A stretch of 6,011 bases of DNA from Chloracidobacterium sp. UBA7659. Lineage in GTDB: Bacteria > Acidobacteriota > Blastocatellia > Pyrinomonadales > Pyrinomonadaceae. Positions within the stretch are counted from its first letter, which is position 1, and every line of letters starts with the position of its first letter. Position numbers and translations under genes: made by a program. The stretch covers positions 1 to 6,011 of the forward strand of contig DLHV01000014.1 in NCBI GenBank assembly GCA_002483395.1, in the 5' to 3' direction. The notes beneath the pieces were generated by a model. It was not told the origin of the DNA and searched no databases. It worked only from the letters and a program-made list of their open reading frames with translations. This document shows positions 3,597-4,985 of the stretch, one piece after another.

Positions 3597-4985
3597 ATGT
3601 TCGAAGTGAATTTTGACAAATCAGTACAATATCTCTATTCGCTCGGCAACGAAGTCGAGGCGATGAAACTCGGTCTTGAAAATATTCGCACGCTCCTCGC
3701 TGCACTGGGCGCCCCCCAAAACAACTATCTAAAAGTCCAGGTCGCGGGCACAAATGGAAAAGGCTCGGTCTGCTCGTTTTTGAATTCGATCTGCGTGCGT
3801 GCGGGAATAAAAGTAGGTCTCTATACCTCTCCGCATCTGGTTTCCGTTCGGGAGCGAGTGAAGATCGAAGGGATTGATATCAGCGAGGAAGCGTTTGCCC
3901 GGTATGCTTCACGGGTTAGGGAAACGGCAGAAACGCTGGTTACCATCGGCGAGCTTGAAACTGTACCGACATTTTTCGAACAGGTAACCACGACAGCTCT
4001 GATCGCATTTGCGGAAGAAAAGGTTGAACTCGCAATTCTCGAAACCGGCCTTGGCGGGCGTTTTGACGCGACAACCGACGCCAGTGCCGAGATCGCCGCT
4101 ATCACTGCTATCGACTTCGATCATCAGCAATACCTGGGCGAAACCCTGGCCGAGATCGCGGCCGAGAAGGCGGCGATCATCAGGCCGGATTCAAAAGTCG
4201 TTGTCGCCGCGCAAAATGAAGACGCGATGCGGGTTATCATGGCGGTCTGTGGTGACTTCGGTGTTTCGCCGAACTTAGCGGATGGGATGACGGTGGTTCC
4301 GACAGGCGGAAACACGACCGGTAGGGAGTGTGTAAAGATTGCGCGAGAGTGGGATTTCAGCAAAGAAGAAACACCCTCCCTACGGGTCGGGTTTCTGCCC
4401 GTGTCGCCGATCGCCTTTGAGACAGCTCAAGATCTTTACGAAAATGTGCGGCTTGGCCTGCTTGGCCGTCACCAAATCGAAAACGCCAAGGTCGCCATTC
4501 TCCTTGCCGAAATACTTCAAGAGCATTTCAACATAACTACTGAAAACATCATTGCCGGACTGCAATATGCACGCCATCCCGGACGACTCGAATTTATTGG
4601 TAATTTTCTCTTCGACGGGGCCCACAATGTTGGTGGGGCGAAGGCCCTGCGAGAATTTCTCGACGAGTTTGTAGATCGGCCTGTAACAATGATCTTCGGA
4701 TCGATGCGGGACAAAAATGTGCGTAAGATCGCCGATTTGCTTTTTCTGAAGGCAGAAAGCTTAATATTAACTCGGCCGGATAATTCGCGGGCGCTGACAC
4801 CCGCGGAACTCGCCGGTTTCGTTCCTACGGAATTCGATCCGGGACGCGTGCACTTAACCAAAACGGTCGATGAAGCTCTGATGATGGCACAACGCCTTTC
4901 GAACGGCGGTTTGATTCTCGTCTCAGGCTCTTTATATTTGATTGGCGAAGTTCAGAAGATCCTGAAAACACGATCTCAAATTTGA
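3597..4985 (+). CDS. folC: Bifunctional folylpolyglutamate synthase/dihydrofolate synthase
   Basis: FolC adds glutamate to dihydropteroate and/or to folates with ATP, in the cytoplasm. The 462-residue product has the Mur-ligase-like order: P-loop GTNGKGS (51-57), YTSPHL (76-81), FEQ (127-129), LETGLGGRFDATT (148-160), FDHQQYLG (174-181), the KAAIIRP helix carrying the usual carbamylated-lysine region (191-197), GRHQIENA (290-297), PGRLEF (328-333) and DGAHNVGG (340-347). It is somewhat longer than the usual 420-440 residues. The extra length falls mainly at about residues 235-270, between the two domains, and is encoded by an inverted-repeat element at 4300-4406; all core motifs survive, so the enzyme is probably active. 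Start 3597 is set by the AGGA site and by the family-like MFEVNFDKSVQYLYSLG beginning. Whether it has one or both activities cannot be told. The stop codon lies inside a 20-base palindrome, and gpmA begins 31 bases later. Confidence 0.95.
   Translation: MFEVNFDKSVQYLYSLGNEVEAMKLGLENIRTLLAALGAPQNNYLKVQVAGTNGKGSVCSFLNSICVRAGIKVGLYTSPHLVSVRERVKIEGIDISEEAFARYASRVRETAETLVTIGELETVPTFFEQVTTTALIAFAEEKVELAILETGLGGRFDATTDASAEIAAITAIDFDHQQYLGETLAEIAAEKAAIIRPDSKVVVAAQNEDAMRVIMAVCGDFGVSPNLADGMTVVPTGGNTTGRECVKIAREWDFSKEETPSLRVGFLPVSPIAFETAQDLYENVRLGLLGRHQIENAKVAILLAEILQEHFNITTENIIAGLQYARHPGRLEFIGNFLFDGAHNVGGAKALREFLDEFVDRPVTMIFGSMRDKNVRKIADLLFLKAESLILTRPDNSRALTPAELAGFVPTEFDPGRVHLTKTVDEALMMAQRLSNGGLILVSGSLYLIGEVQKILKTRSQI
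4300..4406. repeat. Imperfect long inverted repeat (palindromic element) inserted in frame in folC
   Basis: The left arm (4300-4333) and the reverse complement of the right arm (4371-4406) match at about 30 of 34 positions with one 2-base gap, around a 37-base loop. The best block pairs gaccggtagggagtgtgt (4316-4333) with acaccctccctacgggtc (4371-4388), with two mismatches. The stretch encodes FolC residues 235-270, between the ATPase core and the GRHQ motif, where homologues are normally shorter. Size, symmetry and in-frame placement resemble REP/MITE-like or Rickettsia-type palindromic elements that add peptide inserts to proteins. Only one copy is in this window, so dispersal is inferred. 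Confidence 0.7.

Follow-up and report, generated by a model that had tools for sequence, protein, structure and literature searches.

The window, which is the whole 6,011-nt stretch of DNA analysed here, carries a folC gene with a palindromic doublet inside its coding sequence. The features are as follows.

3597..4985, plus strand: folC (folylpolyglutamate synthase / dihydrofolate synthase), the host gene, with Pfam matches to Mur_ligase_C (7e-15) and Mur_ligase_M (9.7e-13).
4305..4399, plus strand: REPIN-like doublet of 95 nt, made of two inverted units and translated in frame as about 32 residues.
4305..4333, plus strand: unit 1, GGCGGAAACACGACCGGTAGGGAGTGTGT, with its foot CGGA at 4307-4310 and its hairpin at 4312-4331; exact and near copies occur genome-wide, and the hairpin shows covariation.
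4334..4370, plus strand: spacer of 37 nt, which differs between doublets, the copies having no conserved spacer.
4371..4399, minus strand: unit 2, GGCAGAAACCCGACCCGTAGGGAGGGTGT, foot CAGA; four mismatches to unit 1, same family.

A profile of 30 FolC proteins matched the solved FolC structures, with 1o5z at the top (E 1.1e-94). The two units of the doublet lie head to head and are identical at 25 of 29 positions without a gap. Positions 4290-4415 fold at -65 kcal/mol; 200 dinucleotide shuffles average -41.0 +/- 3.7 (z -6.47), and none of them folds as well. Thus, the inverted repeat that the initial annotation had described in folC is real. Its middle is again 37 nt long, but the conserved arms are 29 nt long and gapless; the arms of about 34 bases first proposed include partly paired flanks. 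The pair is absent from a repeat search at default settings, whereas the fold and copy searches do reveal it, and Rfam at its gathering score gave no match in the window. Elsewhere in the window, a 90-aa ORF (2139-2411, minus strand) apparently fuses the first residues of an acyl-CoA ligase to the C-terminal domain of that protein (PF13193), as if the middle of the gene had been deleted or misassembled.

The reading frame is open across the doublet (GGNTTGREC...ETPSLRVGFLP), which falls in the inter-domain linker between Mur_ligase_M and Mur_ligase_C, in agreement with the in-frame translation reported earlier. With the ATG at 3597 taken as the start codon, unit 1 begins exactly at codon 237; the 95 nt of the doublet are not a multiple of three. 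Numbered from the codon at 3600, the doublet encodes residues 236-267. In the same numbering, an AlphaFold2 model of FolC (mean pLDDT 88.5) drops below 50 at residues 237-241 and 251-267 and draws a helix at residues 241-250, which are likewise doublet-encoded. Most of the doublet-encoded residues lie below 50, and the best reading of the segment is a predicted disordered loop.

The source assembly comprises 4.45 Mb in 268 contigs and is 82% complete. A search of it with positions 4295-4412 gave 52 matches, mostly to unit 1 (40 of 94 candidates scored), which rules out a palindrome unique to folC, and the pattern GAAACNNNNNCGGTAGNNANNGTG, with one mismatch allowed, matched 80 times against once for its reversed control. 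The initial annotation had left room for an element occurring only once, and the arm is instead found dozens of times. The fetched loci of this genome hold 81 elements, namely 44 distinct head-to-head doublets and 37 single units, counted at no more than eight mismatches to any of seven consensus strings; at a stricter cut of five mismatches or fewer, 37 doublets and 29 single units are left. The unit is therefore what a canonical REP/REPIN is in form, a short palindrome in high copy and often arranged as inverted doublets, with spacers that vary from doublet to doublet. Exact copies of the folC-type 29-mer occur both in other genes and outside genes, in at least three reading phases, and five of its six reading frames are open. 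The outer flanks carry A or G at position -1 in 91% of 124 cases and otherwise show weak preferences. The same genome contains related unit families, among them GGCAGAAACGCGACCGTTAGGGAGCGTGC with its partner GGCAGAAACGCGAGTGTGAACGAGCGTGC. On contig C247, one ORF without a Pfam match (L004:776-2236) carries four units; one is weak, and the set includes a pair of nearly identical direct repeats whose flanks are similar.

The anatomy of the unit was derived from alignment of its copies. A CNGA foot occupies positions 3-6 in 109 of 114 unit hits gathered on overall similarity (at most 7 mismatches of 29); three of the five exceptions are shifted by one base and one is N-masked. In 59 distinct aligned units the foot is present throughout and C3, G5, A6 and A7 are invariant, C3 having been fixed beforehand by the alignment filter. 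The hairpin consists of four pairs, a two-base mismatch (mostly tandem G-A), two further pairs and a loop that is mostly GNNA. Pairing holds in 94.9% of pair cells in these 59 units, compared with 19-66% for structures slid by 1-3 columns, and compensatory changes on both sides of a pair number 55, against 17.6 in shuffles. Pair 10-25 alternates between A-T, C-G and G-C, and pair 14-21 between C-G and G-C. Two of the five covariation measures are modest, being reached by 33 and 31 of 500 shuffles. Because lone units are no more stable than their shuffles (z -0.4 to -1.1), the case for the hairpin rests on covariation; one of five lone units folded favours another structure. The canonical REP/REPIN 5' tag, GTAG (GTRG) or CGTC, does not occupy the foot, which reads CGGA or CAGA; in the folC-type unit GTAG forms part of the loop, and the other subfamilies lack it.

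The unit is spread through the genus. In a set of 60 genomes, 33 of 36 same-genus relatives have at least one match to the GAAACNNNNNCGGTAGNNANNGTG pattern and 31 of the 36 exceed their own reversed control, the highest count being 91 (G005), whereas 23 genomes of other genera gave 10 pattern matches and 34 control matches and so do not rise above control. FolC was matched in 58 of the 60, and its named relatives include Acidobacteriota metagenome genomes, several of them labelled Pyrinomonadaceae or Blastocatellia. We read 30 FolC genes as DNA, our own and those of 29 relatives. Linker units were judged by eye to be present in six (the source genome, G036, G013, G001, G025 and G024), and the strict motif confirms those of G036, G001 and G025; the other 24 have no recognisable unit. 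The units of these six differ in sequence. The case in which all close FolC orthologues share the peptide without the nucleotide symmetry, which the initial annotation had considered, is thus not what these genes show. In G025 there is one unit, in reverse orientation. In G036 the partner arm is decayed, and between the source genome and G036 one hairpin pair has switched on both sides (C-G to G-C), two amino acids changing with it. On a linker-free FolC tree, presence of the element takes three changes, and the supported branches force at least two.

Insertion in frame is not peculiar to folC. In all, 16 of the 81 elements lie in frame inside ORFs backed by Pfam or homology, a raw count that implies neither depletion nor enrichment in genes and was drawn from ORFs spanning a unit, with gene-breaking insertions falling outside it. 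Elements near an ORF start or end or lacking Pfam support (L004, L021, L060:983, L125, L014, L142, L073 and others) were left out, and 10 further ORFs were also scanned. Single units are found in genes for a P-type ATPase, LpxD, saccharopine dehydrogenase, CarA, an AMP-binding enzyme, a xanthine-dehydrogenase-type protein, FdhD and a ferredoxin-TPR protein. Doublets are found in folC, two DNA methylase-Mrr genes (the second assigned by 63% identity to the first, its own Pfam scores being under the cut-off), an EamA transporter gene, cysS, a FAD monooxygenase gene, an alpha-2-macroglobulin gene whose part downstream has no Pfam match, and a beta-lactamase-fold/NamZ gene. One more ORF, L013:194-1819, joins UvrA_inter to a glucoamylase-like C-terminus (the latter recognised by eye) with a unit in between, and was dropped as a possible chimera. 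The seven in-gene doublets besides that of folC measure 96, 90, 87, 84, 78, 75 and 75 nt, every one divisible by three, and the lengths of the other 36 doublets leave remainders of 0, 1 and 2 in 16, 8 and 12 cases. Because the in-frame cases were preselected, this divisibility informs element boundaries only; it mainly says that the inserted length is the doublet, or the doublet plus or minus a multiple of three.

Units recur at the same linkers. In the DNA methylase-Mrr gene, the linker is occupied by a folC-type doublet in the source genome and by one from another unit family in G017, and it is empty in five relatives (L274, L275, L276, L278 and L281); 12 of the 30 fetched loci were read, one of which does not reach the linker, and the relatives are too distant to give exact empty sites. 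Empty sites, and the occupation of one linker by two unit families, show that insertion is recurrent. In CysS, recognisable unit DNA is present in the source genome, G017 and G009 (20 of 30 fetched loci read), the linkers of G021, G018, G016 and G003 hold peptides that by eye resemble decayed units, and the remaining linkers are short. In CarA, a single unit lies at the same site, strand and phase in six species (L212-L215, L218 and L219; 30 loci) and encodes AETRPVGSV or a near variant. Carriers have linkers of at least 14 residues, against 7-11 residues in 10 of 13 other same-genus genes; the remaining three have longer linkers with no recognised unit. Across the six species, 85 of 110 same-residue comparisons within the CarA unit find the same codon (0.773), a value above every one of 242 eight-codon windows (mean 0.526, maximum 0.758). 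This likeness points to repeated insertion, refreshing or a DNA-level constraint.

Candidate transposases were sought among genes of the Y1 type. Y1_Tnp (PF01797) has 14 matches in the source genome. On contig C105 a Y1 gene lies between doublets of a related unit family, and on each of C75, C262 and C88 a Y1 gene is bracketed by units of other types. Among the Y1 proteins of this genome, four were aligned; HuH is present in all four and Y----Q in three. A Y1 gene bracketed by the folC-type unit was not found in this 82% complete genome. In relatives, the folC-type unit flanks Y1 genes in G018, G005, G020 and G004, the G004 gene being interrupted by an in-frame stop; in G009 the flanking unit is of this type but has an altered loop. 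Across 32 Y1 loci with units (102,131 nt), the strict motif occurs 33 times, compared with 0-2 times in ten shuffles. The transposase type is present in 20 of 23 same-genus relatives searched; G022 and G023 have neither it nor the GAAACNNNNNCGGTAGNNANNGTG pattern, whereas G008 has 30 pattern hits yet no transposase match. On the transposase tree, unit type takes 7 changes against a shuffled mean of 11.0, with none of 200 shuffles as low, labels having been assigned by hand on 18 of 26 rows; the type-A unit accounts for three changes and does not form one clade, and type B accounts for two. Unit type thus tracks the transposase tree loosely.

Other arrangements of Y1 genes and units were also seen. 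The Y1 gene on C262 (L209, 1582-2263) is bracketed by a third unit family, TGCACAAGCCCGCGCGTGAGCAAGGGCGA, in which CACA replaces the CNGA foot, and its open frame passes through one unit of that family near the C-terminus. On C187, Y1 pieces in two overlapping frames (L211, 1122-1873) apparently represent a broken gene or a sequence error; a folC-type unit lies about 0.5 kb away, but the adjoining unit is of another type, and we do not claim these pieces as its cognate. In two ORFs of the class-3 transposase type described below (L200:1126-2004 and L202:1117-2004), the open frame runs through seven and six direct tandem units, respectively, before the gene proper begins.

According to the available part of the published description, class 3 TnpA(Y1) genes encode HuH-Y1 proteins with a Y----Q motif, are flanked by CnGA-footed atypical secondary structures and have hosts that include Acidobacteria, and the structures can reach high copy, with about 600 printed for Solibacter usitatus (PMC6006769). 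The Y1 genes with CNGA-footed units described here match these features (foot, flanking units, HuH-Y1 with Y----Q, acidobacterial host), a putative class assignment that rests on motifs and phylum. They differ in that the unit is a defined 29-mer whose mismatch is mostly tandem G-A and whose loop is GNNA, in that several families co-exist, and in recurrent insertion into housekeeping linkers, whereas insertion into host genes goes unmentioned for class-3 structures in the portion of PMC6006769 available; the same portion describes REPs lying in frame within tnpA genes of subclass 2.4. Five A1-type transposases score well under the NCBIfam REP-transposase cut-off. Because two more Y1 genes of the source genome (L067 and L068, on contigs C267 and C41) exceed the cut-off for REP-associated transposases, canonical-type RAYTs coexist with the class-3-like ones.

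The GTAG/CGTC REPs and REPINs that accompany RAYTs (see also PMC3116915) are described, in the available account, as 20-40 nt palindromes, dispersed and forming inverted doublets, that also flank transposase genes, with intragenic in-frame copies in Opitutus terrae and Rickettsia conorii (PMC3733652). Our elements share the palindromic units, the inverted doublets, the unit-flanked transposase genes and some in-frame genic copies with that group; the folC family differs in its CNGA foot and in the sub-threshold NCBIfam scores of the A1-type transposases. In the literature consulted, palindromes inserted in frame are on record for Rickettsia and a small number of REP-rich genomes. The Rickettsia palindromes (CGTC), presented there as lacking a dedicated transposase, are also translated in frame within many unrelated genes (PMC3733652), but the host phylum here is another and there is no CGTC tag, so that the two are set apart by description. 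The likeness to REPs and to these Rickettsia elements that the initial annotation had seen is nonetheless upheld by the inverted high-copy units and by the fraction of them lying in genes. E. coli REPs, mainly extragenic in the available account, likewise have a conserved tetranucleotide ahead of a hairpin broken by a conserved two-base mismatch, although the mismatch bases and the foot differ from those of the folC family (PMC8266576).

A literature search over titles and abstract openings, with most subscription journals outside its scope, returned no description of the folC unit family or of class-3 units inside host genes. Within that literature, the unit family, its class-3 link and the reuse of the same linkers appear to be new. 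In-frame intragenic REPs, and CnGA structures beside class-3 Y1 genes in Acidobacteria, are already known from the accessible parts of PMC3733652 and PMC6006769; the earlier suggestion of an undescribed family therefore stands, in the literature searched, for the unit family and not for these.

We conclude, with a probability of roughly 0.86, that the folC palindrome is a REPIN-like doublet of a genus-wide 29-nt unit, that a class-3 TnpA(Y1)/RAYT-type transposase is the likely agent of its movement, in single-stranded form, and that it probably persists because it landed in frame in a predicted disordered linker. The transposase would recognise foot and hairpin in trans, and the unit would be inserted without target duplication. 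Out-of-frame or badly placed insertions would be purged by selection, FolC with the doublet would stay active, and related repeats would likely be retained only where they do little harm. A wider version of this idea, which we rate as less likely than not, is that the genus-wide class-3 Y1 system spreads nearly frame-neutral hairpin units and in this way repeatedly supplies housekeeping enzymes with new linker peptides, some in-gene copies, as in CarA, keeping their DNA beyond protein need through refreshing by transposase or gene conversion.

The in-gene elements might instead be under host selection as DNA or RNA, for example as a pause, an mRNA hairpin or a binding site, and thus be more than tolerated. 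The CarA codons, more alike than in any window compared, and the two-sided change of a hairpin pair between the FolC genes of the source genome and G036 would fit such selection, but recent or repeated insertion accounts for both. The decayed partner arm of G036, CysS linkers that resemble units at several stages of decay and the many relatives that do without a unit also argue against it, and we consider it improbable. The description of the element as domesticated, in the sense of a gained function, goes beyond these results; a benefit to the host, or a role for the hairpin in the folC mRNA, would be hypothetical.

Less probable still is a MITE. On that view the 29-bp units would be the terminal inverted repeats of a degenerate classical transposon, which a DDE transposase would mobilise in double-stranded form. 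The doublets do resemble short inverted-repeat elements with variable middles, yet a covarying hairpin and a conserved foot are present in each terminal unit by itself, single units make up 37 of the 81 elements, and the products of the genes found between units are Y1 single-strand transposases, Y1 genes being those searched. That ordinary FolC codons form the inverted repeat by chance, with no mobile element, can be set aside: the linker is indeed a variable part of FolC, but, as the initial annotation had sensed in calling the symmetry foreign to ordinary coding sequence, the idea is refuted by the genome-wide recurrence of the same exact 29-mer, inside and outside genes and in several phases, and by its absence from most FolC genes read.

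The preferred reading of the folC palindrome, as an in-frame doublet of a mobile unit, places it in one acidobacterial lineage that combines many in-frame inserts with a candidate transposase family and has the same linkers occupied in several species. The inserts apparently span fresh to decayed states. Whether new segments of proteins come from selfish hairpins, as has long been proposed, would thereby become testable, by species comparison and by an assay of one small enzyme acting on a small hairpin.
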